Source of the DNA: Physcia stellaris
Lineage: Eukaryota; Ascomycota; Lecanoromycetes; Caliciales; Physciaceae
Length of the DNA stretch: 64,000 nucleotides
Reading direction: 5' to 3'
NCBI GenBank assembly: GCA_018902385.1
Contig: JABSSW010000011.1
Location: forward strand, 1-64,000
Shown here: piece by piece, positions 1 to 22,842 of the stretch
Layout of the letters: each line of letters begins with the position of its first letter
Numbering within the stretch: position 1 is the stretch's first letter
The notes under the pieces: generated by a model
Databases searched by the model: none
Told to the model about the DNA's origin: nothing
Seen by the model: only the letters and a program-made list of their open reading frames with translations
Made by a program: the position numbers and the translations under genes

Positions 1-3000
1 ATGTTGATTGTCGATGAACATATTAATAAATTCGACGAAAAGCAATTTGACGTTTCAAAATTAAATTCCAAAAAATTTCAAATTGATACGTTTAAACAAT
101 TTGCAAAGAATTTAAAAAATCACGAAGCGAATATTCAGCGTTGATGTGTCGCGAAAATCGAAAAGCAAATCGAAAAACAAAAGTTTAAAAAGTTACGAAA
201 ATGTCAGAACAATTAAAGAATTTAAAAGTCAATTTGACGACATCAAAACAAATATTTTATTCGAATTAAATAAAAATGATCATGTTATTGATTTGAAAAA
301 AAACGAAAAATCGTCGTTTATGTCGTTGTATAATTTATCACAAAATGAATTAACGAAATTTCGACGTTACATCGAAAATGTTTTGATCAAAAAATGAATT
401 AAACATTCAATTTTTTTCGTTGACGCGTCGATACTTTTTGTATCAAAAAAAAATGAAAATTTTCGTTTTTGTGTGAATTATCGAAATTTAAATGCGATGA
501 CAATCAAAAATCGTCATTCATTATTTTTAATCACGAAAATTTTGAATCGTTTTAATGATGTTAAAAAATTTATCAAAATCGATTTGAAAAATGTTTATCA
601 TCGAATTCGCATCAAGCAAAACGACGAATAAAAAACGACGTTTCGCACGCGATACGAACATTTCGAATATCAAATCATGTTTTTTGAATTAATCGATGTC
701 TCGACAATTTTTCAAATTTATATCAATAAAATTTTGCGAAAATTTGTCGACGTCATTTGTGTGATTTATTTGAACGATATTTTGATATATAATAACGATT
801 CAGCGCAACATTGACGACATGTGCGTTTTGTGTTTTAGCGATTGAAACAATATGAACTGTATGTCAATTTAAAAAAATGCGAATTTGTCATCGATCAAAT
901 TGAATTTTTAAATTTCATTGTGTTCATTGAAAGTGTACAAATGAATTCAAAAAGAATTCGAATCATTGAAAAATGATCGCGATTTAAAAGTTATCGCGAA
1001 TTACAAATATTTTTAAAATTCGTTAATTATTATCGTCGTTTTATTCATGATTATTCAAAGTTAATTGCATCATTTATTGATTTATTGAAAAACAGTAAAC
1101 AAAACAAAAAATCTGAATTTTTTGTTTGAAAAGAAAATCGAAATTGACGTTTCGTCGATTGCGCGATATTTTACGTCGATTTTCATTTTTAATTATTATG
1201 ATTTTGTCGAAAATCAAAATGAAAATCGATGTTTCGAATTTCGAAATTTCAAATATTTTTAATCAATTTGATGAACAAAATCATTGACGTTCGATCGCGT
1301 TTTGATCGCGAAAAATGATATCGACGAAAATGAATTACGAAATTCATGATCAGAAATTACTAATTATAATTATGATTTTTCAACAATGACGACATTATTT
1401 CGAAAACGTTGCGCACGCGATGAAAATGTGATTTGATCGCAATAATTTAAAAAATTTATGAAACAAAAAAAATTAATTCAAACAAATCAAATGAATTTTT
1501 AAATTAATTGTTTATGATTTCGAAATTTTTCAAACAATGTCGAATTTTTTTCAATTCGACGTTTTGATTATCGAAACGTTCAAATGTCAAAAACGACGAA
1601 CGTTATTCGCAACGCATTTCGAATCGTTATAAACAAAATTGAACGTTATCGTCAAAAAAAAAACATCAAACGAACAAAATTTTGCTTCGAATATCGCAAC
1701 GATATTCAGTTATTCAAAAATTATCATATTCGATGCAAAAACAAACGACGAATTCGTCAAAAAAATTTGATCAAAATCGTCAATGATTGAATACAATCGT
1801 CATTTATCAAAAATTTTCAAAACGTTTTCGATTTTCGAAATTTTCGAAAAATCGCAGAAATCAAAAAATTTTGATCAAAAAATTTCGTAATTATGATAAA
1901 AACGAAAATTTGTTGAAAAAACAAAACGACGTAAATTTCGTCGTCGAAAAAAACAAATTTTATTGAAAAATGAAATTTCGAAAATTTTTTAAATTCAAAA
2001 AAAATCGTTTTTATGTATTTGAAAATCGCAACAATAAAAAAAAAGTTCATAAACAAAATCACGATGATTTTTTGACAAAATTTTTGATGTTGATAAAATT
2101 GTGAATTTAATTGAAAAAATTTATTGATTCGTTTGCGCGAAACAAATTCGTTATTTATGTCAAAATTTCGACATACGACATACGTATCAAATTTATCGAC
2201 ATAAATTTTATGAAAAATTCAAATTTTATTTGTTTAAGAATATTTTTGAAAAAAAAATTATCAAGTTTTTAACATCGATTTGTTTTTAACAAACGTCGCG
2301 ATGTCGTTTATGATTCGATTTTAATGAAAATAAATCGTTGAATCGAAAAAAATCAAATACATTTCGATTACGATCTGAAAATGATGTCGTTGCGCGCGAA
2401 AATTTTTTATAAAAAAATTGTTTTTCGATTTGACGTTTCGAATGATATAATGATGACAAAATTTTGTTTTCACGAATGTTTTTGATTTTCGATGTGTTAT
2501 CACGTTACGCATTAAACGACGATTAAACATTGTTTTTCATTTTCAAACGAACGATTGATCGAGCGTGTCAAAATTAAATTTTTGAAACGTATTTGCGTAC
2601 ATTCGTCGACGCGAAAGCAACGAATTTGAACAAATATATTTTCAATGATTGAATTTGTTTATTTTTAACGTTAGGCAAACTTTGTTAAAATGTTTCGTTT
2701 TTTTCGAATGTATGATTATCATTCAGAAATTTATTATGCGATCGACAAACGATTTCATTCAAAAAAAAAATTTTGATTCATTGCAAAAGAAAAAACGATT
2801 TAAAATGAAATAAAAAAACGTTGATAAAACGTTTAAAATTCGTTGTCGCAAATCAAACGAAATATTACAATCAAAATCACGAATCAAAGAAATTCAATGT
2901 GAATGATTTAGTAATGCTCAATATCAAAAATTTTAAACAACGACGTTTTAACAAAAAAAAATGTCGACAAATTTGTTGAATTTTTTCGTGTGAAAAATAA

Positions 3001-3010
3001 AATCGATACG
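1..3010 (+). mobile_element. Degraded Ty3/gypsy LTR retrotransposon remnant (pol part)
   Basis: Read on the + strand, this AT-rich stretch still shows Ty3/gypsy pol order. Reverse transcriptase blocks lie at about 0.45-0.95 kb (NYRNLN, KIDLKNVYHRIRI, LNDILIY are legible). RNase H-like sequence follows, then integrase, whose C-terminal part (VMLNIKNF..RRFNKK) is legible near 2.91-2.96 kb. The 5' part lies outside the window, and I did not find LTRs. The copy is heavily broken, with dozens of breaks, and looks old; the damage is the C-to-T type seen throughout the AT-rich compartment. Base composition changes abruptly at about 3010, just past the integrase end. Confidence 0.85.
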
Positions 3011-5030
3011 CAAACGTAGAGAATTAGGGCATAGCCGCTGCCCGACCACATACCATACCAACTACCTACCTGCCAGACCTGCCAAGGCATGCTCGTAACA
3101 CTATCCCCCCTCCGCGACGTCGTCCCGTGCTTGGTCCGTTGTTACTCCGAGGTTGGAGGACCTTGTTGAGGACCTTGCTGACTGGTTTGGGTGCCTGCAG
3201 GATCCAAGTTCCACGATCACCATCTTTCACCTCCAGGTGCTCCGTTATTAGCCCAAAGCTCGGTAAGACTCAAGCAGCAGCCTCTGGAGGTGTTTCTGGC
3301 ACAGTTCAGCCCTCCATGCGACGTAAGCCCTGGCTGTAGAAGTAACACCGAGGCGGTAACGGAGACTAGGGGCTGCGGGACGTTGCGGGAGTGGAATCGA
3401 GGTGAGTGCCAACTGAATCCGATTTTTCCAGGTTTTACCGAATTTAAAACGATAATGCCAGCATGGCGGTTCAACATCAACATATAATTACGAACAAAAA
3501 AAATAAACAAACGTCAAACGTCAAACAAAAAAATTATAAACAAAAAGAAATCGGTTCTTTATCTGCATACCGTGGGGTGAGTGCGAAATGGAAGTCGTTC
3601 GAAACCACGTCGCGGGCATTATGAAAACTCTCCGTTGTCTCAAAATACCATGTTCGGTCCATCGGCCAAATTCATTTGGCACGATACTGGAGTCGCAAAA
3701 AATTTTTTCGAAACTCAAGGATATCGTCATCATTTTTGAATGAGGGTTTTTGTATTGACTATGACAGAACGAAAGGTAAAAATGTTTTCCTTTGCTTATC
3801 GGGGTCAATTGCGCAGGAGCCAACAGTGAAAACATCGTAGATTCTGGTTTTTTTTTCAATTTTTTATTTTTTCGCCCATCGTTTTTCGTTTTTTTTTTTC
3901 TCAGTTTCATTCTGCAAATCAAAAATTTGCCTGGCCGTCTTGATGTTTCGTCGGTCGAAATCGAGTCGTCCCTCGGCACGCTCTACGCCTTTCAGTGCTT
4001 GTTGGCTAATCGGGCTGTCATACGCTTCATTGTTTCAAATCAACAATGGTCTTTTTCGTTTTTCGAGCCAACGATTTTGCATTGTGCCGTTAATTCCTCT
4101 GCGCCAGCGGCCAGAAGCCGCTCATTTATTTTCGAAATCGAGGTAGGGTCTGTTAACGTCGTCGCATCGGGTGGAAGCCTTTATTGATGAAGAATGGAAT
4201 CGCGTTGTTGAATGCTGCGTTGTTCGCAAATTGTCTGCAAACTCGCTAACGCACCATGGGCAACCACACGCCATACATGCGAAATTTTCGCAAATTATAA
4301 CATGTTATTTGCCGCAACTGTCTTTCGGCCCTGATTGGCTCTTTCGGTTTACGCCCATTTTTCCACAGGTGGAAAGCGGTGGAAGTAAATAAATTTTCGA
4401 ATTCGGCAGAATACATAAACAAACGATATGCAAACGTTGGGGCCTCGATCTTGCGACGAAAAGAATCGAGAGGTAAAAAATAATGAAAAAAAAAAAAAAA
4501 TGCTAACAAAAAGATTTGGCCATGGAGAACAACTGGTAAATTATCGTCACGTTTGTGGCAATCGACGAAATTTCATGTTTATCAACAAAAAGCCTGTCGA
4601 CGTTTCGATAAAATTGAATTTGACCGTGGGCGTCAGGCAAGCGGTGGTGACAAAATCATTGATATGTCGGTCCAATTGCAAGGATGGCCAGGGGTAAGTA
4701 AGCTGAAAACATGCTTTACGATTGGCATCCATGGCAATTTTCAAAACGTATCTGAACCGCCTTAACGCATGTTTCAACAAACGATCACGACGTATAAGGT
4801 CCTCCATGATATCGTTTGAAAACCTGGATGCCCCGAGGCAGGGGTTCCGTGATTTCCCTGAGGATTTTTTGAAACTTTACGATCAAGACATTTACAAGTC
4901 GGTCTCGCGATACAGGATATTGTTTTTTCAATGCAGCCTCGAAAATCAACTCCATTAAGAAAAAAAGACCTTGCCCGACGGCTTCGCGTTATCGAACAAC
5001 TAAGTCATGCGTTAATTCTGAATACGCGTT
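3011..5030. other. Normal-GC island between AT-rich repeats
   Basis: Base composition returns to ordinary levels here, then falls again after about 5.0 kb. There are short open frames on both strands, none recognisable, and a short A-run near 4.49 kb. The left edge follows the integrase end of the gypsy remnant directly, so part of it may be the 3' end or LTR of that element, or unrelated DNA. No gene is supported. Confidence 0.4.
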
Positions 5031-7260
5031 TGCGTAACGCAAATGTTGATATTAATAAATTTAATGTAATTCAAATGTAATTGGATCTATATCGCTCCGG
5101 GGTAAAAACGTACGAATTGATATCGATAATCAGTGCCGTTAATCAAAGCGTCATAATTATTACGTCAAATACGAATATAAATAGATTGTTCTTTCTTTTT
5201 CTGCCAATTTCCCCGGATTAGTTTTAATTTACAGTACTTGAACTCCGATGTTGGTTTAATAATTGAAATTTATTAAATTTCACGTTTTTTGATACGTCAG
5301 GAAGGTTATCGTAGAATTAATAGTTATAGAAATCTGCTTTACGTCAGCGCGTTTAAGTCCGCCAGTGCTCAATATCGAAATCGAATAATTGTCGAAACGA
5401 TTATTTTATCAACGAGTCTCGTAGTTGCACTCGGCTGCGACAATCAATGTTGCGGCTATACAATCGATTTAAAAACGATTCAATTCAATGTTTTTCGTTT
5501 TGAGATTTCATTTTCAACGCATTCGTAATCAGAATATCAGAATGGCCTGTTTGTTCGAAAATTTGCAACATTTAATCATATCTTCTTGAATTTGCATCAA
5601 TTTTCGGAATCAGTCATTTCATCAAAATGTTCAAATTTTTGGTTTTTTACATTTGAATACATATTCGAATCGACAAAAAAATGCATTTATTCAACGTTTT
5701 TGATTTATCAAAATTGCAAATTCCTTCAACATTAAAGAAATATCTGAATCAACATGATTTTCGAAACAGTCATTTTATCGAAAATCTCGCATTTTTCATT
5801 TAATACATCAGATGACGCCCAGGAATCAAAGTCGGGATTTAAAACTCGTCAATTTAATATTTATTTATTTGTCGAAATCATCATCTTTTCAAACGATCGA
5901 ATCAGAATTTCAAAAAAATTGCTCCTGTTTGAAAATTTTCAGAATTTTGTTCATTTTTTCAATCGATACAGTCAAATCAATATGGAAAACAAAAAAATTC
6001 AATTGTTATTTGTTCGTCTGTTTCGTTTGTTTCGCAAATATCATTTATTTATTTATTTTTTCAATTTTCAAAAGGTTACAAATGTCGAATTAATATTTTG
6101 TCAATTCAAAAACATTATTTCGAATTTCATTCGTTTGATAAAACATTACGTTATCGATTAAAAACAACAATTCGTTTGTCATTATCAACAAAAACAAAAA
6201 TTCAAAACAAATAGAAATTGAAAAATTATTAATCGATCATTTTCATCAATTTGTTTGAATTTTTCGATTGCGATATTCGAAATCAAATCGAAATCAACGA
6301 AAAATCAACAATATGTCGACATTGCAACAAAATATTCAATTTCAATAACAAATTTCACAAGCATATACGCGAACATTATGTTCGAAAATACTCGGTCAAG
6401 AATTTGAATTTTCGAAAATTCACATCAAAATTCACATACAAAATTATTGAAAAATCAACAGACATTTGTTCGTTTGTTTCGTTTATTTCGCAAAAATCAT
6501 TTATTTTTTTTGCAACATTAAAAAATCAAAATTTTGATTTTCAACAATTTTCGAATCAGTCATCGTGATCGACGCGTTCGAATTTCTCGATTGCATCATA
6601 CACAAAATCAATTCAAAATCGATGAAAACGCAATCGTCAATTGTTCATTCATTTTTTCATTTATTTTATCGTATATATCAGTTCGAAAACATCAAAAATT
6701 TCACATTCAAAATTTTTATTTGATCCACCGAATCGATTTGGGTCCAGCATGTTTGTTGAAAAATTTATATCATTTTGTTTGCAATAACATCAAAATCGTT
6801 GTGCGTTTTTCGCAAAATTTTGATTTTTGTCAATGTGATCGAGCCGCTGTGGTTCAATTTTTTTCAAAAAAAATCTTCATTTCATGATCGAAAATTTGTT
6901 CGAAATGCTTCGAGTGAGAAATTCAAAAAAAAATCTGTTTTCAAATTAAAATAACGTTTTTTTTTCGAGGGCGCTCAAAACAGGTTGAAATGACGATTTA
7001 TTTCAAATTTACAATCATTCAAAATCGTCGATTAATCAAAATTCAAAAAAATTCAAAATCGAAAAATTTGAATCAACACATGTTGCTGAACCAATTCGCG
7101 CTGTTTTCAATCAAAATTTGTTTGAAAAACTGATCAATTTATCATACAAAATATCGAATGTTTTTTGCATCAATTTGAAATTTTTTGTCGAAATTTCTTT
7201 TTTATTTTCATATTTTTTTTTTTCGATTTTTTTTTTTCGATTTTTTTCTTGTTTTCGTAT
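5031..7260 (+). mobile_element. Degraded AT-rich repeat with a C2H2-like finger fragment
   Basis: This is AT-rich sequence with the same C-to-T damage as its neighbours. A + strand reading at about 6.25-6.57 kb contains a C2H2-like pattern (CRHCNKIF then HKHIREH), which I recall from repeat-borne proteins in ascomycetes. Two short stretches near 6.01 and 6.46 kb resemble each other. The family cannot be assigned, and the copy is heavily broken and old. A decayed host gene is an alternative. Confidence 0.35.
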
Positions 7261-7420
7261 TCGTTTCGATCGTTTCAATTACAAAAAATGAATTGCATTA
7301 ACGTTTACGAACAAATCGTTTCGATCATTAATCGTGTTATTCAATAAAATAATGAATTTGTCGTTTCGAAACGAAATTGAAAAAAAACGAAAAAAATAAA
7401 ACGTTTACATTAATGCGAAA

Positions 7421-7560
7421 CATTTTCAAAAAGATTTATCGCATACACGTTTTGTTGAATGCAATGTCACATCAATTATCGCATATGCGTAAATATCGAT
7501 GCGTTAATCGTTGTTGCGTTGATTTTATTAACATGACGAAATTGTTCGTTAATCGTATAA
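7421..7560. repeat. Direct repeat copy 1 in the AT-rich block
   Basis: About 140 bp here recurs in the same orientation at 8648-8790. The shared text includes a long common stretch ending in TTGATTTTATTAACATGACG, and most mismatches are transitions. The copies are about 1.2 kb apart. They could be LTR remnants of one element or two copies of a short repeat. Confidence 0.6.
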
Positions 7561-8647
7561 TGATTTGAAATTGCAAAATTCAACGTTTACATTAATGTTT
7601 TCATTACATTCAAAAATTCGAATTTTCAATCTTTTACATTCTAAATTACGTATTAGATTTTGAAAAAGCAAATTCTCGATCGTTTGTTTATTTCATTATT
7701 TACGTTATCGTTTGCATTTTTTATGAATTGATTGTAAATCAGCATTTTTATCAACTGAAACGATTTCGATTTCAAATATTTCGCATAAATTTACATTCGT
7801 CATCAAAATACAAATATTTTTATTCACATCGAAAATTTGATAAAAACGAATCGCTATTTTGATCAGAAATTCAAAACATTGAACAATTTTTTCGTTTCGA
7901 TCAATTTGTTTCTGAAATTTTCGAATGTCAAATATTTTCAAATGATTTATCATGTCATTTAAGGAATATTCTGATTCATGTTTCGTTGTCAAATTTCGAA
8001 CATGAATTCGAAAACGTTTTCATTTTTCTATTTTGTATTTGTATTAATCTTGTTAATGAATCCTCGATGCATGTTTCAATTGTTTAAACGATTTTCGCAC
8101 ATACAAAATCGCATAATTTGCAAAAAAATTTCGTCGTTTTCGTCGTTTTCATTTCAAATTTTTGTACGATTTCATGATTGTCGCGTTCGTTAGGATTTCG
8201 TATATTTACGAACAAATTATCAAGATCACGTATTTTGTCGATCGATGAAAAAAAAAAAAAACAATAAATTAATTTTTTTCGAAACGAAGTTGAAATAATT
8301 TTGATGTTTGTAATCAATCAAAAACATCACGTCAAATCAAACTCGCGATACATTCATTTTTTATGATTTTTCACAATTTTCTGTTTCGACGTTACAATTT
8401 TGTTATTTACAGTCAGAATTTACGACGCATGAAAAACTGAATCGTGTCAAAAACATTTTCAGAAATTGTTGCTTTCGATTTTATTCAATTGCGAAAAAAA
8501 AATAACAAAATATCGAAAAGATTTGAAATTCGAATCCCTTCATACAAACGAATCAATATTCGTGATTTTCGTCAAAATTTTCAACAAAATTTTTAATTGC
8601 TTATTAATGATCGACGAAATTATCTGTTAAATTTTTAGAAACAAATT

Positions 8648-8790
8648 ATTTTTCAAAAAAGTTTATTACATACACATTTTGCTGAATAAAACGTATATAT
8701 CAATTGTCGTATATGCGCAAATATTAACGCGTTAATCGTTGCGACATTGATTTTATTAACATGACGAAATTGTTTGTTTACGACATAATC
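8648..8790. repeat. Direct repeat copy 2 in the AT-rich block
   Basis: This is the partner of the repeat at 7421-7560, in the same orientation and diverged mainly by transitions. A second short shared piece (TCGTTTCGAAACGAAATTG) lies before copy 1 at about 7361 and after copy 2 at about 8953. The two units are therefore not simply collinear. Confidence 0.6.
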
Positions 8791-9269
8791 GATTTGATTT
8801 TTGAACGAATTTTCGACGAATTCATTTCGCAAACGAAATTCACTTCGCAAAATTTTACATTTACATATTTTTTTGTTTCAACGATTATTCAATTAAACGT
8901 CATTTCACAAACGCATTTAAATCGCACAAAATGCTCATCAAAAATTTATTAGTCGTTTCGAAACGAAATTGAAAAAAAAACGAAAAGTAATGTGACGAAC
9001 GTGTATCGAATTCAACATTGACAAAATTAACATTTTTATTTTATCACATCGAATGACAAAATCGAAATTCGTTTATGATCAAATTTTTACATATGTTTTT
9101 GCAAATTTTCATGTATTTGCTTTTCACTTCGATATTTTCGTGCGTAATTATGTATTAATATCATATCAATGCATGACATTTTACAAACGTCGCAAAATTT
9201 CGATTTTTAAATTTGTTTCATTTGATACATATACAACATATCAATATCGTAAAATATTGTTCGAATTTA

Positions 9270-12200
9270 ACGTTCAATTTTTAAATTTTTTGTCGTTTCG
9301 TATGAACGCGCGACGTTTTACGTATTTATTATCGAACATTTGCAATTTTTCAATTTTATTGAAAATTTTTTGAAATGAATTTTCGTACGAATTTTTTTTG
9401 TCACACGTTTTAACAATTTTTTTTCGACGTATTGTTTGCGATATCGCGACAATTTCGTTTTGAAAATTTTTTTTAAAAAATTTTTCGTCAAAATTTTTTT
9501 CGCATTGTTTCGATTTCGTTGAAAACGCGATATTCGCAATTGCGATATTTCGAAATTTGTTTTGCAATATGAATAAACAAATATTATCGTTTTCGTTTTC
9601 GTTTTCGTAATTTGAACGTCGAAATGATTCGTTTGTCGAATTAAAATTTTTATTTTTGTATTTGATTTCGAAATCATATTTATTTAACAATAAAATTCAT
9701 TTGATTTGTCGTTGATTCAAAAACGTGATAAATATAAAATATTTCAAATTATTATGATTCGACATTACGATAATCGTAAATTGATTATTTTTTAAATAAC
9801 GACGTTATTGTTTGAAAAATTTTACGATAATAAACAATTTTTGATCGTGCGTTCAATATTTGATTTCGATAAATATTATTTTTTTGAATAAAAACGACGA
9901 AATGTCATTACGTTTGATTTTCGATATCGAAATTTTTTATCAATTGCAAAATCATTTTGCGATAACGAATTTTAAAACATCGATTTCAATCATTGTTTCG
10001 ATTGTTAAAATCGAAATGTATTAACATAAACGTTTCGATAAACATACAAATGAATTTTTTGAAAATTTTTCATTATTTCGTCGTTTCAAATGAATTCGTC
10101 GATTTGTTTTTCGTTTTTGTTATTTTTTAATAATTCGAAAAATGAACATGACATTTTCGCGTATTTTACGATAATTTTCGATAAAATTTGCGAATTTCAA
10201 AAAAATTTGCAATTTTTTGAAATTGTCAAAAATCGATCATGATTTAATCGAATTTATTTTTTTCATGTTTCATAAATATTTTTTTGTTATTGATAATATA
10301 TTTTAAAAATTCGATAAATTTTTACATAAATCGACATTTGATCAAATTGACGAAAAAATGAATTTTCGAAAACGTTTAAATATCGTTTTTACGTAACGTC
10401 AATTTTTTTTTTTTTGTTCGAAAATAAATCAAAATGTCGTTTAAAAATAATATATACAATTTGTTTATCAATTTTGCAAACATTTTGTTTATAAACGATT
10501 GAAAAATTGTCGACACGTTAATAAAATCGAAAAACATCACGATATATTCGAAAAAATCGTATCGTATTCGAAATACGATTTTTCATTCATTATTCGTTTT
10601 GATTTTTATACGATAATACGCGTTTTTTAAATTTAATTTGATAAAATACACGACGTTCATTAAACGATTCAATATTTCATCAATTAACGATAATAAAATT
10701 TTGTTTTAATCGTAATCGCATTCAAATTTCTGTAATTTACGCAAAATTTTAAATTTTCATTTTTTGAAAATAAACAATATCGACGTATCAATATCGACAA
10801 TCGAATGTTTGATACGATTCAACGCAAAATTTTCGCAAATATATTTTTGAAAAATTTTTAATTTTTTTAAAATATATTGTACAAAAATTCGAAAAACGAA
10901 AATTTGTTCGACATTAAATTAATAACATAATCGTGTTTGTCGTGCGAAAAAACGTGATCGTTAATTTAAAAAAATACATTTTCGAATATTTACAATTCGT
11001 TCGAAATTTCGATCGACGTTTCGTTATTTTTTCGTATAATGTATATCAACGCGTACATTGAAATAATATTATCGTTCAACATTGTCGTGAAATTTTCGAA
11101 AATGTTTAATTTCAATCGATTTTTTTTGATTGTGTAACGTCACGTTATCGTAAATCAATGTACGTGTGAATTGTTTTTCATCATTTATGAAAAATTCATT
11201 ATCAAAAAATATATCAAATTTTGAAACGAATAAAATTTTTGTATTGAAATGAAAAATTTATTTTTGTCATTACGAACATTCATTTTCATTTAATACGTAT
11301 TAATGAAAAATTTGTTTTCGACATCGAAATTATTCATTTTCATGAACGTTTCGTCGATATTTTGCAAATTTTATTTTTTCGTCAACGATTTCGAAATGCA
11401 ATTTATATCAATAATCGAATTCATGAAATTTATTTGCGATTGTTATTTTTCAAAAATATTGACGTTAACGCGAATGAATATATCATTTGATTGAATTTTG
11501 TGTGAATTCGTCACGACAACGACAATTATTGTAATAAATTTTTTCAATCTTTCGAATCGTTTTTGATTTCGATAAATTTTGAAAATATTTTGTTTTTATT
11601 TTTGCGAATCGCATTGACGTCGACGATTGTTTTTTTTTTGAATAAAAACAATATTTTTTTATGTTTCGATTTATCGCAATTGTAACAATTTCGATTTTTT
11701 TTCGTCGACGAATCGACGTCGTTTTTTTGTTTTTGTTAAATTGATTTTTCGTTTTATCAAATTGCGCAAAAAAATCATTTTTGACGAAATTTTTGTTTTT
11801 TTGACGTTCACGATTTTCGAACGAAAAAATTTGCGAAAATCGAAAACGTTTTGAAAATTTTGATAAAATGACGATTGTTTCGCATTAACGATTTTGATCA
11901 AAATTTTTTGACGAATCGTCGACGAAATTGCATCGAATATGATAATTTTTCGTAAAATATCGTTTAAATCGTAAAAAAACTTGTTTCGTTTAATATTTTC
12001 GATGATATTCAATTTTGTTTTTAATAATTCGAAATGCGTTACGAATTCATTTATCATTTTTTTGTTTAATATTATTGTATTTTTGATTCACGTCAAAACG
12101 ACGAATTTCAAAAAATTCGACATTGTTATGAAAAAATTTCGAAAAATACGATCACGTTCTCATCAATTTTTTCGATATTGATTGATTTTTCATGCGATTT

Positions 12201-12610
12201 TCATAATTCGATTGAAATCGTATCAAAAAATTGTTGCGTTCAATCGATTTTGATACGACGTTTGAAAAAATAATTAAAATTTGTATCGAAAAATCACACG
12301 ACGTTTCGAATTCACGATTGAAATTTTTAATATTTTTGACGTTGTAAATGAATAAATTTTTGAATTTGAATTCGATAATTCGTCGAAAACGCGAACGTTT
12401 AAAAACGAATTTATTACGAAATTTTTCGTTGTCGTCATTGTCATCGTCGTTTTCGTTATTGAAAAACGTTTGTGAACGTTTTCGTTTTTTTTCAACAACG
12501 CGAATTGAATTAATTTTTTTTTTCGAAATGAAACGATATCGAAATGTTTGATTTTTTTCAAAAACAATTTATATTCACGTTTATTTTTCGTTTTTTTTTT
12601 CAATTATCGC
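9270..12610 (-). mobile_element. Degraded Ty3/gypsy LTR retrotransposon remnant (gag-pol)
   Basis: On the - strand the usual element order can be traced downwards in coordinate. A basic gag-like region lies at about 12.6-11.65 kb. Reverse transcriptase with a legible FEY..MFF block and LNDILIY is near 10.56-10.42 kb. The RNase H end (LNKYDFEIKY, then SFRRSNYE) is near 9.69-9.60 kb. Integrase probably continues below 9.3 kb but is not clearly legible. No LTR was identified with certainty. The copy is heavily broken, with dozens of breaks, and old; it lies opposite in orientation to the remnant at the start of the window. Confidence 0.75.
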
Positions 12611-12941
12611 TTAAATTGTTCGCAATTGTGCGTAATTAATTTGATTATCGAATTCGAAATCGTCGACGTTCGTTGAAACGACGATAATATGTCGAAACAA
12701 CACGCGAAAAACAACAACAATGCGTTCGTCGTTTGATAAATTTTCATAAATTGAAATCAATTCGTTTCATTGATCGATTTCAAATTAAAACGATTTCACG
12801 ATCGTGTTGTCGAATAATAATTGTTGAAACGAAATGACGATATTGTTTCGAATTACGAACGCAATGACAACAAATATTTTCGAAATTTTAAATGATATCA
12901 TTTGATCGAACAATCATTCACGAAAATTTAAACGATTCAAA

Positions 12942-13165
12942 ATTGTAAAAAAATATACGATTAAATGATCAAATGATTACAAACAAACGTAATGTTTACG
13001 AAACAATAATAAATCATCGTGATGATATTGTAAATAATGATAAAATTAAATCGTGAAAACGAAAAAAAATGAAAATTTTCGAAATGTTATATTTTATCGA
13101 TCAAGACGTTAAATTCGATCAGATTAACGTGCTTGACGATTTTGACATGACATAACAATTACGAT
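12942..13165. repeat. Left arm of a long inverted repeat
   Basis: About 215 bp here matches the reverse complement of about 15168-15385. Both arms contain a conceptual MKIFEMLYFIDQ stretch, on + here and on - in the right arm. Mismatches are mostly transitions. The arms enclose about 2 kb. Confidence 0.6.
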
Positions 13166-15164
13166 TTGTTCGATTTTGATAAAATTAATGTTCAAAAACG
13201 ATTATCACGTTTATTCAACGTTATCGTCGTCGAAATTAATAATTTTAACATCAATCGAAATTTGATTTTCATTTTTTTTTCATTCGAAAAATTCGCGAAA
13301 CGCATAATTGAAAAATTTTCATTGACGCGAAACGAATCGATCATAAAACGTAAAATTTGATTGATATCGACGAATCGAAATTTCAAACGTAACAACAAAT
13401 TTTCAATAAAACGATGTTGATTTGATTTTTTTTTGTTATGTAAAATGTTATTGAATTTTCACAATCGTATTTTTCAAACGCAATTGCAAATTGAATATCA
13501 AATTGTCGCGTTTGTGTTTTATCGCAATTGTCAAAATCGTCAAATATTGTTGAATTCGACGAACATATTTAAAAAAAATTAACGTACAAAATTTGCGAAT
13601 CGACACGCACGTAAAACATTTGTCGTCGTAAAACGATTGAAAACATTGCGCAAATCAACGCGATCAATTGAAAATACAAAATACATATTTCATGTTTAAC
13701 ATCGTTAAATTTGCGTTTGACGCATTTCATACAACATTTTACACGAAACGTGTTCACAACACGTTTAAAAAATTACAAAAATTAATACACAAAATCACGA
13801 AATTAAATCAAATTCACAGTTTTGATTTTGACGTCACACGAAATCATTACGTGTTTCAATAATGACAATAAAAAAAAACAATAAATTTATTGTTGACAAT
13901 TTTGATATTGTACAAATTGTTAACGTCAACAAAACACAATTTAAACGCGAAAAACATTTTTATCAAATTGTTTCAAAATAATATTCAAAAAAAATGAAAA
14001 AATGATCGTAATGAATTTTTGTATACGCGTCAAAACGTTAATCAAATGTTCAACACATTTATCAAAACAAACGACAAACGCGATGAATCGCAAATGAAAC
14101 GAAAAAAAAATCATACAACGAACGCGACAAAACGTTTGTTCAACGACGACAAATTAATGTCGATTCGAACGATTGAAAATTAATTTTTTTCATTTCACAT
14201 TGAAAACGTAATAATGAATAAAATCGTCGTCACGTCATCGATTCATGAATTACAATAAACATTTTATCATTTGAATTACAATGAACATTTGTCATTAATA
14301 ATGAAAATAAATCATGTAAAAATAAAAATGAATGAAAATCAAAACAAATCTATTTATATTTGAAATGACGCAAAAAAATCGTTATCAAAATACAAATCGA
14401 AAAATAAAAAAATAAAAAAACAATGTTCAAACGTCGATTCGAACGACAATTTCAAAAATAAAAAAATGTTCATTTTTGCGTTTTATCATTAAATTATTTG
14501 AACGATAACAAATAAAAATCAAATTGAAATTTATGTTTTATTTTGACACGAATAAATTATCACGCGTAAAATCAAATGACACGAATAAAACGTGAAAAAA
14601 TCGTCATTAAAACAAAAAAAACGAAACAAAAAGCAAAAAAACATTGTTCAAAAATCGATTTGAACGATTATTTTTGAAATCAAAAAATTTTGATTTGACG
14701 TTTTATTGTTAAATTATTTGAATTATACAAAAATTGATTTAAATCGTTTATTTCAATATCAAAAAACAAAACGTGCTCGAAAATCAAAAATTACGTTCAA
14801 AAAAATTGAATTCGCGAAAAACAAACGTCGCAAAAACGTTTGTTTTCGTTTGTTCAACAAAAATAACAATGTATTGATAATTCGAGCAAATATTGATTTG
14901 AACATATTCGTGTCGTATATTATGAATATCGTGATATTGCAAATAATAATATTACGATTAATAAAAAAATTATCGTATGATCGCGAACATCAACATTGAA
15001 TTTACAAATAAATTTTAATTGAAAATCGCGCAAACAAAAATTGACGTCAAATAAAAAATTATTTTCACGAGTTTTTTTAAACGAAAAAATTGAAAAATCG
15101 AATGAATTATACGCAAAAAAAACATCGACGATTCGATTTTGAAAATCAAAAAAAAAAAAAAAAC
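13166..15164. other. AT-rich interior of the inverted repeat
   Basis: This is very AT-rich and has no recognisable coding signal. Short internal repetitions occur: an ATT-GTTAAATTATTTGAA-like phrase is seen near 14.49 and 14.71 kb. It may be the decayed interior of the element that the arms bound, or the junk between two opposed copies. Confidence 0.35.
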
Positions 15165-15385
15165 AATTGTCATGTATGTTATTAAAATCGTCAAACACGT
15201 TAATTTGATCGAATTTAACGTTTTGATCGATAAAATATAACATTTCGAAAATTTTCATTTTTTTTCGTTTTCACGATTCAATTTTATCATTATTCACAAT
15301 GTTATCACGATGATTCATTATCGTTTCGTAAACATGCGTTTGTTTGTAATCATTTGATCACTCAGTCGTATATTTTCTTACAGTG
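15165..15385. repeat. Right arm of a long inverted repeat
   Basis: This is the partner of 12942-13165 in opposite orientation. The outer end, near 15.36-15.38 kb, keeps more C and G than the left arm. It sits at the edge where base composition starts to recover. Confidence 0.6.
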
Positions 15386-17083
15386 AATTATCGTCATTGC
15401 TAATTGAAAAAAATTGCGTTGAAAACGTTATCGTCGCAAATTAATCGATTTTGTTTTTATTCGCAAATCGTTTGCGAATGTGAAATTTTTATCGTTCGTC
15501 ACGATAAAAATCAAATATAATATCAGAAATCGTGTCTGACTAGAAAATAAACAAATAGCAAAACGAGAATATTTGATTTAGAAAGCAAATCTGTACACGA
15601 AAAATCGAAATGTCTGAAATACATTGTGCGTCAAGTCTAGATCACGCTAATTTTTATAAGAATTTTCGCTAATAAGATAAATTTCCAATCAAGATTTCAA
15701 ACATGTTCGTAACACAATTCAAATTTTCAAACATGTTTGTAACATTCATTAACATATTTTGAAAACGTACGAAATAATATAATATAATGATTTCAAGAAT
15801 TGCTTTATAAAATGCTCGTAAAAAATGATAATATATATAAATTGCATATTTTACATAATGTTTTATCAATATTTCTTTGTTATGTTAATAGAATTTAATT
15901 TTGTCGATTTTAGCGTTTCGTTGCTCGATCATTTTCGCACTTCTTTTCGTCAACAAATACATTCAAGTTTTCGCGGAAGTGTTCTATCACTAGTGCTACG
16001 AGCCCCGCCAAAAATTTCAACCAATGGGAGAGCCCCGGCCACACGGATTAGAGGTCGTCCGCTACTCTCGATCGGTAAATAATTGACCTCATGAAACAAC
16101 AGCAGAGAGGCTCAATCACCGAAATCCATACATCACGAAACGGGCAATAATCGGGCGCTCTGTTGACTCTTGCGTCACTTTACCTTGGACTTTGGATACG
16201 CGACGTGATGAGATCAGAAAGTCGCAAGCACGAACAGCAATTGGCTTTCTCATCTTCTTCTTTCCTTCGGCCTTCTTCAAATGACCGATGATTTGTCTCA
16301 GCTGTTTTCTCCATATGACAATTATACAAAGTCTTTCAGCGATATTAGCTTTCCAAGAACTTGAACGAGCCTGAGGACAGTGAATAGCATGATGTTGATT
16401 GCTGAAAAAAGCCGAAGCAAGGCGGTCAAAGCGGAGAAATGCTGTGGGAGTTTTATGCACTCTTGGGCCTCGATATGGAATGAGGAGAGACGAAGAGAGA
16501 AACCGAATGACGTCCAAGGCGTTGAAGAAATTGGAGCTTTCTTGGCCTGTGTGCTAGCTAAGCTGAACCTTCTAAGCTGCTTTGACCTTAGCATTATGAC
16601 TGGTACCTCTAGACTGTTTGAGCACAGCACAGACTAGCGTCGCTTTCTGTATTGTTTACTTACTTACAGCAGCGTCCCATTATTTGGTGCAACAGTGCTC
16701 AGCATGTTCTCCTGAAGTGTTGTATTCGTGGAAGTGTCAGTTTCTATATAGACTCCCATCTTTCCCTCTTCATACATAGGTATCAATTGATCTGACATCG
16801 CGCCGAGATCTCTGGTAAGCAAACAATACCTTCTTTCGAAGATTCAACGGCCATACTGACGTCGACTACGAGTCTAGAGCATGAGAAGGAACTTTTGTTA
16901 AACAGCGCTTAATAGCCTACGCACCATTTTTCAGGTACTCCAAGCGGGCTTAAGAGTCTTGCCATAGCTAACTCTTCACGGCGCAGACTCGGTAAAGGGA
17001 GATCGACTCGATCAACTGGTGTCCTTGGAGGTGCCAGAAATTAGTCAGTTATTATAATTAGAAAAGCCTTGAGGTTATACACT
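15386..17083. other. Transition zone, no gene recognised
   Basis: Composition climbs from AT-rich to normal between about 15.4 and 16.0 kb. Open frames up to about 130 codons exist on - at 16.1-16.6 kb. They have no recognisable motif and no supported ATG. The last few hundred bases are the presumed promoter of the PLP-enzyme gene that starts at 17084. Confidence 0.4.
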
Positions 17084-18563
17084 ATGGATAACATTGCGGA
17101 CACATTTTCGTCGACGCTGACGGCATCATTTCTCTACCCTTCGCCCTCTGATGCCGCGCTCAAGCTTGCGTTCATTAACAAGGATATTAATTCCGTCCAA
17201 GCACCCGCGGCCATTGTCGATTCTGCCGTTATTAAAAGAAATTGCAGGTTGATGCTTGAAGCGGCGCACAAGCTCGGCGTAGACTTTCGTGTTTATGTTA
17301 AGACACACAAGGTAGGCAGCGGCCGATAAAATTCAGATAATGCAACTAATGCCGGCCGCAGACCACCCAAATAACAAAGCTGCAAGTTGGTCAAGACTCC
17401 AAATCCGTTAAACTCACAGCATCAACCATCTCTGAAATTGAGAGTCTCCTACCCTGGCTCTTAGAATGTAAAGCTGAAGGTAAAGAATTAAGAGTCCTTT
17501 ACGGCGTACCCTTCTCGCACTCTTCAATTACACGTTTAGCAGCAGTATCCCGAACACTCGGGCCAGGGACCATAGGCCTTTTTCCCGTCGACCATCCCTT
17601 GCATATCAAAATCCTCGACCAGACGAGCGAACAAATATGGCCAAGCAGGATACCAGTCTTCGTCATTATCGACGTTGGACACCATCGCGAAGGGGTATCT
17701 GCTCACTCGAAGCAGTTGGCAGATATCGCTTACGCCCTCTCTTCTTCCGACAGAACGTACTTGGCAGGCCTTTATACGCATATGGGCCAGTCAAAAGGCG
17801 TGAACAGTCCCGATGAGGCCCTGAAATGTATGTCTACTGAGCTCGAAGGTCTGCAGGAAGGCGCGATCGAATTCTTGAAATGTGCTGGAGCCCAGGAGTC
17901 CAAGGATCCAAAGGTAGCTAAGAAAGTTGTCTTATCACTAGGCGCTACGCCAACCGTCACTGCTGTCCAGAACCTCTTCGACAATACAGAAGGGGCACAG
18001 CGTTATCGTGTCATGATTGACCAAATCAACCAATCCTTCACCGTGGAGCTACATGCGGGCGTGTACATGGTATTGGACATGGAACAACTTGCCACACGAG
18101 CCCGGCCATCTGTATCTCCAACGGACCCAACCAAATCCCTGCTTTCCTTCTCTGATCTGGGCATGCGGATGCTTGTAGAGGTCGTAAGCCTGTATCCAGA
18201 TCGCAGCGAAAGGCCCGAAGCCCTCATTGCAGCTGGTTCAATAGTGCTCGGCCGCGAACCTTGCAAGTCGTACCCAGGCTGGGGTGTTATTTCGCCATGG
18301 CCTGCTGCTCATGGTCCACATTACGACCTGAGAGGAACAGAGCAGGCTGGATCGTTGGACGCCTGAGTCAGGAGCACGGGGTTTTCACTTGGGAGGGATC
18401 CAAGGCTGAAATACGAGAGTTAGAAGTGGGTCAAAAGCTACTCATTTGGCCAAATCACCCTTGCATTGCTGGAGTCAATTTTGGTTGGTATCTGGTTGTT
18501 GATTCGGATACAACGGAGCCAGACAAAATCGTTGATGTTTGGACACGATGGCGCGGTTGGTGA
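17084..18563 (+). CDS. D-threonine aldolase / D-serine dehydratase-like PLP enzyme, frameshifted
   Basis: This is a fold-III PLP enzyme of the alanine racemase N-terminal domain family, which acts on D-hydroxy amino acids such as D-serine or D-threonine. Exon 1 is 17084-17311. A 50-bp intron (17312-17361, with AACTAAT branch-like sequence) follows, then exon 2. YVKTHK near residue 75 carries the expected PLP lysine. The C-terminal PNHPC matches the His-x-Cys metal site of eukaryotic D-serine dehydratase, and GWYLVVDS and DVWVRWRGW-like endings fit the family. The reading frame changes at about 18.33-18.345 kb, between the conserved HYDL and GWIVGRLSQEHG stretches. No plausible intron explains this: the only GT..AG pair is 32 bp and would remove conserved residues. 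As read, the metal-site domain would be lost. The full frame would be about 476 residues. It points towards the S9 pseudogene and is likely decaying. Confidence 0.85.
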
Positions 18564-19373
18564 TGGGCTCTGCGGGTGTCTTGCGTATCGCATCTGAGGA
18601 CTAGATTGGGAAAAAATAATGGATTCTTCAAAAGTCTCACAAGACATGGCTTACGTAGACGGGTGGAGCAACTCTTCCCACCTTCTCCTCCTGCAAAATC
18701 TCCAGAACCTGTTCCTCGATTGCGCGCGGGCGAGCAAAGTACCAGTGATAGATCAAGTTCATCACGGGCTACTATCATCGCCTTTACCTTTTGCTACGCC
18801 TTCTGATACGTCAGGCCTCATGTGCATCTTATATCCGCGTTTGGGAATTTGAGATTGTTGTGCAACACGTGCATAGTGCGCAAACATCGATGCAGATATA
18901 TAGCCGTGATTTATCATTTGCGAAATTCTGAGAATCGGCTTGATTCACATTATTGTGAGGTTTGATTCCTAATGGCGTTTTGTCCCTTGTGGATTATGGG
19001 TTACTCGTACCCGACATGGTCTTGCGATGAGTTGTCTTCTAATCTATGTGGCCCCTTGGGCACCTACAGGAGCCAGCGGAGCATATGCTACCTAGTGCGA
19101 CCGCCTGAGTAAGGCATAGTTCAGCAAGCCTCACTATTCACATACGTGGTAGCTCCCACGCGGCCGGCCACGCGCCATTTATGAATCGGCTAGGACAACC
19201 CCAAGACCTCGACTGTCTTGACTTAGCTTGATAGCCTGACAGTTGCTCGAGATATACATCCCTTGAGAAGGTGGTGTTCAGCGTTGGTCCTAAGATATTC
19301 ACGACACGATCACAGTTGCATTAACACATTAAACAGCTAGAGTTGTCAGTCCCACCTTCACCGCAACGAGATC
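18564..19373. other. Intergenic, nothing recognised
   Basis: About 0.8 kb lies between the PLP enzyme and the peptidase pseudogene. A 77-codon ATG frame at 18619-18852 has no recognisable motif. The last part is presumably the old promoter of the peptidase. Confidence 0.5.
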
Positions 19374-21389
19374 ATGAACAATGGTAGTCCAACGGCTAGA
19401 CCGACAAATAGGGCAGTGCCATTGGGCGTTGATGCCGACAGCCCCGAAGAAGCAGTCAACGCTTTTGAGGAGCGGCCAGCTGTGCTTACTGCGGAAGCCT
19501 TGGCAGATCAGGAGGTCCCGGAAGGCGTCCAAATTTCTCCATCGGGGAAGCAAATTGTCTACTATCTAAAGCCAGCCTCGAGGAGAGGTGATAACGAGAA
19601 AAGTGCTCTGTGGTTAGCTGAAATCGGGAAAGAGTTTTCAGCCATGCGATTAACTTCCGGTCACTTTCATGATGAAATTCCTCAATGGTCTCCTGATGGG
19701 ACCAGCATTGCGTTTGTTTCGGACAGAGCCCATCAAGGACGTTCCTCGGCCATATATCTTCTTCCCTTCTCAAATCCACTACCTTGTCCAATCACTGATC
19801 CTGAGAATCAGAAAAAAATCACGATGTTCAAATGGAGCCCGAACGGGCAGCATATAGCATTCCTTAGCCCAGATGAGGACGCTGCCACAAAGGACTCCAA
19901 ACGTGCGCAGAAGGACGATGCTATTGTCTATGGTGCGCATTGGGATTTTAATCGGTTGCGATGTGCCCATTTGCATACTAGAACAATCATGACACTCTTT
20001 GAGAAAGCCGTTCACGTCAATGAATTCGTATGGAATGCGAAGTCGGATCAGCTCATATACGCTTCTCAGCGAACGCCGGAGTTCAAAGATCCTGCTGTGG
20101 AGCATGGAGTCAGCTTCGGGCGGCTGTTCATAGAATCAAAGATCGAGACACATCGATGGACCTTTCCAGGTCCTGTAAGTCATCTCTCATGGTTAGGGGA
20201 GCACCTGTAATTCCTCGGTGCCGTCGTCCCAGACAAGAACAACTCTGCGAGCATGATATATAGAGTATCACAGGATGGACACGGGTTAGCGCCTTTTGCA
20301 TATGGAGCCGACGATTGCGCTAAACAATTGCGCTATGGAGCCGACTTCCTAGCTGTGCAAGTCCAGAAAGGCCCTACGGACCAGATTCTTTTCATATCCG
20401 ACTCCAAGCCGTCACTCATTTACGGCGACACGTACGCTATTACGACCTGGGATATCCGGGATGCCGGCAATAGTCAGATAGTGCTGTCGATAGGACGAGG
20501 CTCACCAAACAAGCCAACCGACCTTTATTCAATCCAAGACCAGGGTTTGTGTCAGCTCTCGCAACACGGCGATGGTATTGCAAACCTCGATATAGCAGAG
20601 TACGAAATCCTTTATGCCAAAGCAAGGGACAACACTGCGCTTGATGGTCTGCTATTGAAACCAAAGAGGGCGATTGAGCAGCCATGGCCAACTATCGTAT
20701 TGCTCATGGAGGACCACTTGACAGAGTTACCATGGCCTTTGATGTTCCTGTATTTCACTGGGGACCTTGGCTTGCAGCAGCGGGCTATGCGGTGTTGTGT
20801 CCGAATTATCGAGGGAGTAGTTCTCGAGGCGAGAAATTCGCTAGCTACGGCAGAGGGAGCGTCGGCACCAAGGATTACAGCGATATAATTGATATGATCA
20901 AGTTTGGCATCGAGCGCACTTTGTTCGATCCTGAACGTATAGCGATTGGTGGATGGTCTCAAGGAGGGTTCTTGAGCTATCTCTCTGTGACTCGGCAGGA
21001 ATTCCTCTTCAAGGCTGCTGTTTGCGGAGGTGGAATTACGGACTGGGACATGTTGGTCATGTCTTCCGATATCTCGGCGGTTGAAGCAGAAATGGCTGGC
21101 GGTGCCCCGTGGACGATGGACGCCGATGACCTACGGACCCGACATGCCAGTGCTGTCTGGCATGTTGCCTGGTGTGGGTACCAAAACTCCAGTGTTGATC
21201 CTACATTCGGAGCGCGATGAAAGAGTCCCTTTGTCTCAAGCCATTGCTTTCCACCGCGCGTGTCTTCATCAAGACATCCCCTGTCAAATGGTTATCTATC
21301 CGAGAGAGCCGCATATGATGACTGAAAGACTACATCGAATCGACATGTTGAAAAGAATCAAGCAATTCTATGATTTACACTTGCGATGA
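19374..21389 (+). pseudogene. S9 prolyl oligopeptidase-family peptidase, pseudogene
   Basis: The sequence encodes a serine peptidase of the S9 (acylaminoacyl-peptidase/dipeptidyl-peptidase) family. An N-terminal beta-propeller with WSPDG and WSPNG repeats is followed by an alpha/beta-hydrolase domain. The catalytic elements remain legible: GGWSQGGF (Ser), ERDERVP (Asp region) and REPH (His). No introns are needed. The frame is interrupted three times: an in-frame stop at 20208-20210 where the family has Tyr before FLGAVVPDK, a frame change near 20.70 kb just before HGGP, and an opposite change near 21.17 kb before VGTKTPVLIL. The total of 2016 bases equals 672 codons because the two shifts cancel. 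The start ATG at 19374 opens a plausible N terminus. No transmembrane segment or signal peptide is evident. Confidence 0.85.
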
Positions 21390-21927
21390 TGTATTTGTAC
21401 GTTTTGCCGGCGCATCTAAATTTGAAATAATCGATATAGATAATTGTTCTTTCGAGGCGCGAATGTCATGTCTTGAAGACGCGCTTTTTTCAAAGACTCC
21501 TTCGTATCGAAATACAGTGATGTTTTCACAGTGTGATTAATCATGGTTACCAGTACAAAGACCCTTCATTAAATGAACTCCCGTGTTCGATAAATGAACC
21601 CCCTAGTATCTGAAAGAGCCTTCGGGACTGCTCCCAGGATCGCCCTCGCTTCCGGAAAGTCTTCCGTTTCGCTTTCCCGCGTCGCGGTCAAGACTCAAAA
21701 ATAATTCGGGCACTAGTAACCCTCTGTGTTTTCGCAAGCTTGATGAATTCAACAACAATACAAACGAGATTATGATCTCTACATGAAGTGCAGGCCGAAA
21801 CTCGGGCTCCGCCAGAAGTGTCTAGGTAACCACCAGGGTTGGACATCCAGATCTCGGCCGCATATGCGGAGCATATGGGCGTTCCCTCAGGGCAAAAACG
21901 ACGACTCCGTGTCGCCCAGAGATGAGT
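21390..21927. other. Intergenic, flank of the LTR element
   Basis: No gene is recognised. The last 19 bases (21909-21927) form the left arm of a perfect inverted repeat whose right arm is at 25443-25461. The final five bases, TGAGT (21923-21927), are the target-site duplication of the LTR element. Confidence 0.6.
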
Positions 21928-22147
21928 TGTTGCAGGGGAGTAACAAGAAACTGGTAATTGGCCCATAAGCGAGTTGCACGTGACTAGCCTTATATGCTTG
22001 GCATTCGGCCTTCTACAAAACCGCCTGTAGCATCCTCCTAGATAGTCATAATCCACACACCTTACAACCAGGAGCATTGCACTCGATTGTAGACCTATCG
22101 GGCCTCGATTCTGACCTCCTGCCACTGTGCTAATTATCCTCTTTACT
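21928..22147 (+). repeat. 5' LTR of the gag-only element
   Basis: This 220-bp repeat starts TGTTGCAGGGG and ends CCTCTTTACT. It is almost identical to 25124-25343. It contains a CACGTG hexamer. Confidence 0.85.
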
Positions 22148-22842
22148 GGTGCCCATTCTCGGAAGGACGACTGGCAGTAAGGGTCGCCGTTGGCCGCCCA
22201 CTGTTTACCTCCTAGGGACAGCAGAATCGAGCTCCTTTACTACGCAACAACTAGGCTACGGAAGGTCTATCTTTTCGGACGGCGAAGTCCTCTATACTAT
22301 AACTACTGAACTCTGAAGTTTCAACTCCATACGGCTTATAATTGACGGGTAGTCTTAGCCAGCACGTTGTACTCTCTGCTCTCGATTTCGGGCATACGCG
22401 GTTTTGTTAACTCCGCAGTACCTTTCGCAGCAGCATTTCTGCCCTTTCAGGAGCAAAACACCAGGCATACCCCTATACCGATTGCTTGGGCCCTCATTAC
22501 GGATAGTGAGGAAGAGCGGTTACGAACAACTGCTGTTATTGGGCTGGCTAGGCCTCTGAAACGACTCAGTCAAAGCGTACACCTATTAGCGACATCGATA
22601 TCCGTGCGATCGCTTCTATCATTGCTAGATCACGCCAACACTCGGTGCTTGACCGTGGGTACATCATTCATGGTACAATTTTAGCGCGCAGAGCGTGTAC
22701 CTCCGTCAGGAAATCAGTCGGCCTGTAACTCATCTCGTCGCAATGGCTTCGGCATCCTGCTTCAGGATTCGGCTTCGATAGTCTGCTCAATTCATTTGGC
22801 TGGAGTCGTTCCTACATCCACTGTTCCTGCATCAACCGCATC
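22148..22842 (+). other. Leader of the gag-only LTR element
   Basis: About 0.7 kb lies between the 5' LTR and the long frame. It begins with the primer-binding-like site. Near its end a TCATTTGGCTGGAGTCGTT phrase recurs inside the frame at about 24.25 kb. No conserved pol sequence is present. Confidence 0.5.

Follow-up and report, generated by a model that had tools for sequence, protein, structure and literature searches.

We identify a process in the genome of Physcia stellaris (GCA_018902385.1; 43,974,083 bases in 147 contigs) that has turned C into T in repeats on both strands (C>T or G>A), following a rule set by the 3' neighbour and little influenced by the 5' neighbour. Our window, the whole stretch of 64,000 nucleotides analysed, is positions 1-64000 of contig 11 (JABSSW010000011.1), and it opens with AT-rich DNA decayed in this manner. 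CpC is mutated faster than CpT, the youngest comparisons hold very few other substitutions, one copy carries a strand-specific tract of ~1 kb, the decayed stretches tested are multi-copy, and single-copy genes are intact. That a repeat mutator specific for C before a pyrimidine (CpY) acts on this genome is, in our judgement, almost certain. We propose, with a probability of roughly 70%, that a repeat-directed C>T mutator of the kind known as repeat-induced point mutation (RIP), with CpC its fastest target, CpT next, and CpA and CpG near background, is the best overall explanation.

Dinucleotide composition and the aligned mutation spectrum

Positions 1-15360 retain 939 CA (observed/expected 1.19) and 980 CG (3.23) against 121 CC (0.38) and 163 CT (0.21), with opposite-strand contexts of TG 823, GG 137 and AG 177; the internal control, 37480-63206, gives ratios of 1.11 for CA, 0.91 for CC, 0.90 for CG and 1.07 for CT. 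Most of the remaining CC and CT lie in a GC-richer island at ~3000-6000, and when 3001-5999 is left out the + strand holds CA 739, CC 9, CG 797, CT 52, TG 652, GG 11 and AG 68. An initial annotation of this DNA had described, by eye, removal of CpT and CpC with CpA and CpG spared in the AT-rich compartment, mirrored by rare ApG and GpG. Its hand counts are exact (7 CpA, 3 CpG and neither CpC nor CpT at 13921-13980; 4, 3, 0 and 0 at 10021-10080), the mirrored contexts are as scarce as it stated, and the full counts make the pattern stronger than it claimed. The index (CpC+GpG+CpT+ApG)/(TpC+GpA+TpT+ApA) is 0.080 in 1-15360 vs 0.898 in 37480-63206. Classic RIP indices are negative in the decayed compartment (TpA/ApT 0.48; (CpA+TpG)/(ApC+GpT) 1.25) and published RIP thresholds flag 0 of its 30 index windows.

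Since composition alone could mislead, repeat copies were aligned, and the aligned spectrum agrees. A Ty3/gypsy element with RVT_1, RNase H and integrase domains is represented by a GC-rich copy (L014; contig 12, 57396-59870) and, outside the window, by at least 38 more places in the genome. With L014 as reference, we compared 18 decayed copies, drawn from the 37 listed places that remain once the second GC-rich copy (L007) is set aside. Fractions of C>T ranged over 0.75-0.98 at CpC, 0.40-0.93 at CpT, 0.02-0.15 at CpA and 0.02-0.10 at CpG, and the order CpC > CpT > CpA and CpG held in 18/18. Pooled counts, which are not independent because the copies share ancestry, are 6542/7080 at CpC, 3940/5280 at CpT, 384/5730 at CpA and 273/6093 at CpG. 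The effect of the 5' base is small both at CpC (ACC 0.944, CCC 0.916, GCC 0.910, TCC 0.933) and at CpT (ACT 0.780, CCT 0.781, GCT 0.684, TCT 0.726). Compared with L014, the GC-rich control L007 shows changes at 5/341 CpC, 7/243 CpT, 6/278 CpA and 11/283 CpG, and the least decayed copy (L038) at 300/398, 119/298, 7/322 and 11/344, respectively. L038 does not differ from the control at CpA (p = 1) or CpG (p = 0.67), differs at CpC (p = 5e-111) and CpT (p = 7e-28), and has CpC mutated more than CpT (p = 4e-21). C>T or G>A changes make up 234/241 substitutions between L014 and L034 and 437/468 in L038, the transition dominance that marks RIP. CpA was thus retained in the alignments, being neither depleted nor the main mutated context, and the preference for CpA that characterises most, though not all, described cases of RIP is absent here.

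The same order recurs in other sequences. A second retroelement family (RVT_1 at 36.3 bits), which we read as LINE-like, includes early copies changed at 63/93 CpC, 39/170 CpT, 4/188 CpA and 10/200 CpG (L086) and at 77/93, 48/170, 4/189 and 10/199 (L085); two more (L072 and L087) are further decayed with the same context order. In a decayed copy of the ribosomal DNA (rDNA; L037, contig 41 at 45.9 kb), changes at conserved Rfam columns of the large-subunit and 5.8S blocks affect 17/19 CpC, 12/27 CpU, 0/18 CpA and 0/24 CpG. This copy is the only 5.8S match among the matches listed, so a working rDNA array may be absent from the assembly.

Strand-wise comparison of two gypsy copies, L038 (contig 95) and L039 (contig 51), gives 0 transversions over ~2.47 kb and 107 C>T changes. 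Along a tract of ~1 kb in L038, CpY is hit at 112/143 sites on the - strand and 14/123 on the + strand; in the same region the + strand of L039 is changed at 49/61 CpC, 22/57 CpT, 0/55 CpA and 0/73 CpG. Strand-wise tracts on a single copy are a trait of RIP, seen here in one of the four copies profiled by strand. The difference between the two copies looks like the product of one or a few fast strand-wise bursts, and the lack of transversions together with a one-strand tract argues against slow decay.

Decayed DNA in the genome and the window

A random sample of 20 stretches of 1.5 kb, drawn from 13 contigs, contained three decayed stretches (9/60 half-kb pieces). Summed over both strands, these three hold CpA 565, CpC 0, CpG 530 and CpT 79, and no loss of CpA was seen in the nine decayed half-kb pieces. 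Each of the three matches at least ~40 places, along either a part or the whole of its sequence (960/1500 bases for L058, ~700/1500 for L070, the full length for L072), and a GC-rich random control (L060) was its own sole match among the matches listed. In this small sample, decay is confined to repeats and single-copy DNA is spared, as in RIP (3/3 decayed stretches multi-copy, 1/1 control single-copy). The repeat search brought in 27 loci (L008-L034) in addition to the window and the first pieces of the two GC-rich copies. In 23 of them CpC numbers 4 or fewer over both strands; the other four are the GC-rich gypsy copy L014 and three loci that are partly GC-rich. At the start of contig 1 (L035, 1-300), the CCCTAA telomere repeats are intact although rich in CpC and CpT, and a CpC-poor patch lies within the next 1 kb.

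In the window, decay had been annotated at 1-15360. It does run through most of that interval, but it ends at ~15990 and ~3000-6000 is an exception, as the following features show.

1-2999: CpY-decayed AT-rich DNA, first part of the compartment; GC 0.25-0.27, with 0-1 CpC and 3 CpT per kb
3013-3469: undecayed Ty3/gypsy fragment inside the decayed compartment; 90% identical to the GC-rich copy on contig 12 at 57.5 kb, C>T 0/77 at CpC
3552-4990: probable assembly blend; each base that of the GC-rich gypsy copy or of a decayed repeat
5000-5999: partly decayed transition zone; GC 0.30, with CpC 14 and CpT 25 on the + strand
6000-15382: main CpY-decayed compartment; remaining C almost always before A or G
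14500-15382: decayed interspersed repeat; at least 21 other places match (nearly) full length at 81-96% identity, one of them the contig 37 overlap
15380-15729: second, short repeat; matched at 79-83% by at least 8 places elsewhere, CpC lost and CpT partly kept
15730-15990: decayed edge; no copy besides the contig 37 overlap among the matches listed
15991-64000: gene-bearing DNA of normal composition, internal control

Between 3552 and 4990, 1099/1126 compared bases match the GC-rich gypsy copy or the decayed repeat and 27 match neither, a count inflated by the separate optimisation of the two alignments; judged from its sequence, this segment, close to the start of the contig, is probably a product of assembly. 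Decay at 15730-15990 is possibly spill-over from the adjoining repeat. Positions 1-3018 and 14205-29302 of contig 11 match contig 37 (476299-505557) in the same order at 90-95% identity (~29 kb; the middle of contig 37 was not compared), with 89.6% identity between 1-3018 and 476299-479307. Over 15991-24128 the two contigs differ at 301 of 8068 sites, and C/T differences fall before C in 43 cases, T in 45, A in 40 and G in 46. Being free of CpY bias in this gene-bearing part, the overlap fits alleles or redundant contigs, or else a second strain, and we do not read it as duplicates. By reading of their translations, open frames in the window resemble a highly reducing polyketide synthase, a telomerase reverse transcriptase and a Crz1-like zinc-finger protein; a 584-aa open frame at 22843-24597, in DNA of normal composition, resembles a gag-type protein.

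Candidate enzymes and rival explanations

A PF00145 profile search of the genome returned four matches in three loci. One locus (L002) is a DIM-2-type gene with an 1118-aa open frame, PF00145 at 125.4 bits and a best PDB sequence match of 608.6 bits to 9bap_A, which we take to be DIM-2; it was assigned to the large DNMT1-superfamily class (BAH plus C5-methyltransferase) with a BAH domain at 19 bits, under the cut-off of 30.8. The others hold two RID-type genes, RID-A (L003/L004; 934 aa in the gene model) and RID-B (L001; 508 aa), 40% identical across 174 aa in the catalytic part and with a common intron position; their splice sites and starts are manual models made without transcripts, and the first intron of RID-A requires an AAG acceptor. 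Both look intact and resemble the RID/Masc1 family in having a PF00145 domain, a PCQ motif, E(Q/E)T in the ENV position and QIGNAVPP near the C terminus, ENV and EQT being presumably marks of that family. Where RID-A has EQT, RID-B has EET, and RID-B is without most of the N-terminal region. The RID-type assignment is made by motif; a PDB sequence search yielded no RID. The RID/Masc1 motifs are described in PMC2432034. The genome contains RID homologues, a further trait of RIP, and both gene types that the initial annotation had named are present. A MAT1-1 alpha-box gene is the sole hint of a sexual cycle.

In the mechanism we propose, the mutator would act through pairing of repeats before meiosis, and a RID/Masc1-type methyltransferase-like enzyme (RID-A, RID-B or both) would perform the chemistry, its target-recognition part having shifted from CpA to CpY. 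A RID-type enzyme is the probable executor of CpY mutation. We also lean, slightly less firmly, towards a RID-family enzyme, or the RID-A/RID-B pair, having come to read pyrimidine (CpC > CpT) instead of purine (CpA) at the 3' position, with CpA and CpG effectively non-substrates. The suggestion in the initial annotation of repeat-directed CpY deamination, or of a RIP enzyme of altered specificity, gains support from aligned copies with C>T at CpY and near-background CpA and CpG, from the multi-copy nature of decayed stretches and from the methyltransferase genes.

Several observations weigh against our proposal. Assignment of the process to any enzyme is by inference only. The GC-rich gypsy copies L014 (contig 12, 57.4 kb) and L007 (contig 5, 1163.6 kb), which are 95.8% identical over ~2.1 kb and have decayed, different flanks, are themselves unmutated, and a long open frame persists in L014; the process may now be inactive, silent or rare. 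Four second-family copies (L081-L084) have diverged too far to give a clean signal, with CpA at 0.22-0.28, CpG at 0.21-0.24 and 126-135 transversions. In some heavily decayed gypsy copies CpA is changed more often than CpG, as in L053 with 30/317 CpA vs 11/337 CpG (p = 0.001), which makes CpA strongly disfavoured and not forbidden. The tract distinguishing L038 and L039 is not purely one-stranded, since 27/323 C sites of the - strand differ, all of them CpY, and the ~29-kb overlap of contigs 11 and 37 shows no CpY bias.

A DIM-2-type enzyme, instead of RID, could have produced the decay through methylation or deamination that is directed by heterochromatin, has a CpT-like preference and spreads over repeats. 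The presence of a DIM-2-type gene and the extension of decay ~260 bp past the last repeat found are consistent with this, as are a review that gives CpT as the preferred methylation context of Neurospora DIM-2 (PMC13297926) and a contribution of DIM-2 to RIP of old repeats (PMC11969663). We nonetheless regard it as unlikely, given that an enzyme preferring CpT would not be expected to favour CpC and leave CpA at background, and that young repeats in Neurospora depend on RID (PMC13297926, PMC11969663). Ordinary 5-methylcytosine at CpY, decaying by slow spontaneous deamination with no dedicated mutator, would also yield C>T only, in a 3' context set by the methyltransferase. It would, however, strike both strands while other substitutions built up, and the L038/L039 pair, with no transversions beside its 107 C>T changes and with the one-strand tract of L038, makes this route very improbable.

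APOBEC-like deaminases typically leave strand-wise C>T bursts and read 5' bases. Such an enzyme, or another free cytidine deaminase, would suit the tract in L038, but here the 3' base decides and the 5' base hardly matters, and we give it equally little credence; a PF08210 profile search found no match in the genome and none in control genomes either, and so is no proof of absence. An assembly or base-calling artefact, which window positions 3552-4990 do resemble, is scarcely credible for the whole: the same spectrum recurs across many contigs, two retroelement families and rDNA, is missing from single-copy DNA, and leaves CpG and CpA intact, which fits no error model known to us. Ultraviolet-type damage has a negligible probability; CpC and CpT are indeed dipyrimidines, but TpC before a purine is spared (TCA 99/1298, TCG 69/1741), contradicting it, and such damage would not stay confined to repeats. 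On these grounds we set aside these last three together with slow 5-methylcytosine decay.

Relation to known systems

A kingdom-wide survey describes a CpA preference shared by RIP-like defences (PMC12543289), to which this genome is a counter-example. Its nearly inverted 3' preference, combined with two RID paralogues in one genome, offers a direct route to mapping how RID chooses its target base; in vitro, purified RID lacks methyltransferase activity (PMC13297926). Genomes of this kind escape surveys that rely on CpA/TpA indices, as illustrated by the 0/30 windows flagged here though CpC is nearly all lost. If RID has indeed switched its 3' base to pyrimidine, every index built on CpA would class fungi of this type as RIP-negative. 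We found no report of CpC-dominant RIP with CpA spared in the Creative Commons-licensed PMC literature, which omits most subscription journals; one lead (PMC9073689) was rejected, CPC there denoting a culture collection.

The process resembles RIP of Neurospora crassa and Trichoderma reesei in converting C:G to T:A in repeats on both strands, in its 3' context, in the accompanying RID-type gene and in hitting rDNA pseudocopies. In N. crassa the published order is CpA > CpT > CpG > CpC, and in T. reesei CpT and CpC rank behind CpA and CpG (PMC5496416); unlike these systems, where CpC comes last, we observe CpC > CpT >> CpA and CpG. Botrytis cinerea, Sclerotinia sclerotiorum and Magnaporthe oryzae share with P. 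stellaris a CpT signature in transposons, with two RID/Masc1 genes apiece in Botrytis and Sclerotinia (PMC4352252, PMC2432034). In those three fungi, however, CpT accompanies CpA, which is not spared, and the available parts of the sources name no CpC signature. Alignment-based studies report strong CpT>TpT mutation that can dominate (PMC7882544, PMC2621366). Finally, the CpG-type hypermutation of basidiomycetes (Microbotryum, Rhizoctonia) is likewise C>T in repeats under a 3' base rule, but it strikes CpG, which is spared in P. stellaris (PMC4352252, PMC4014442).

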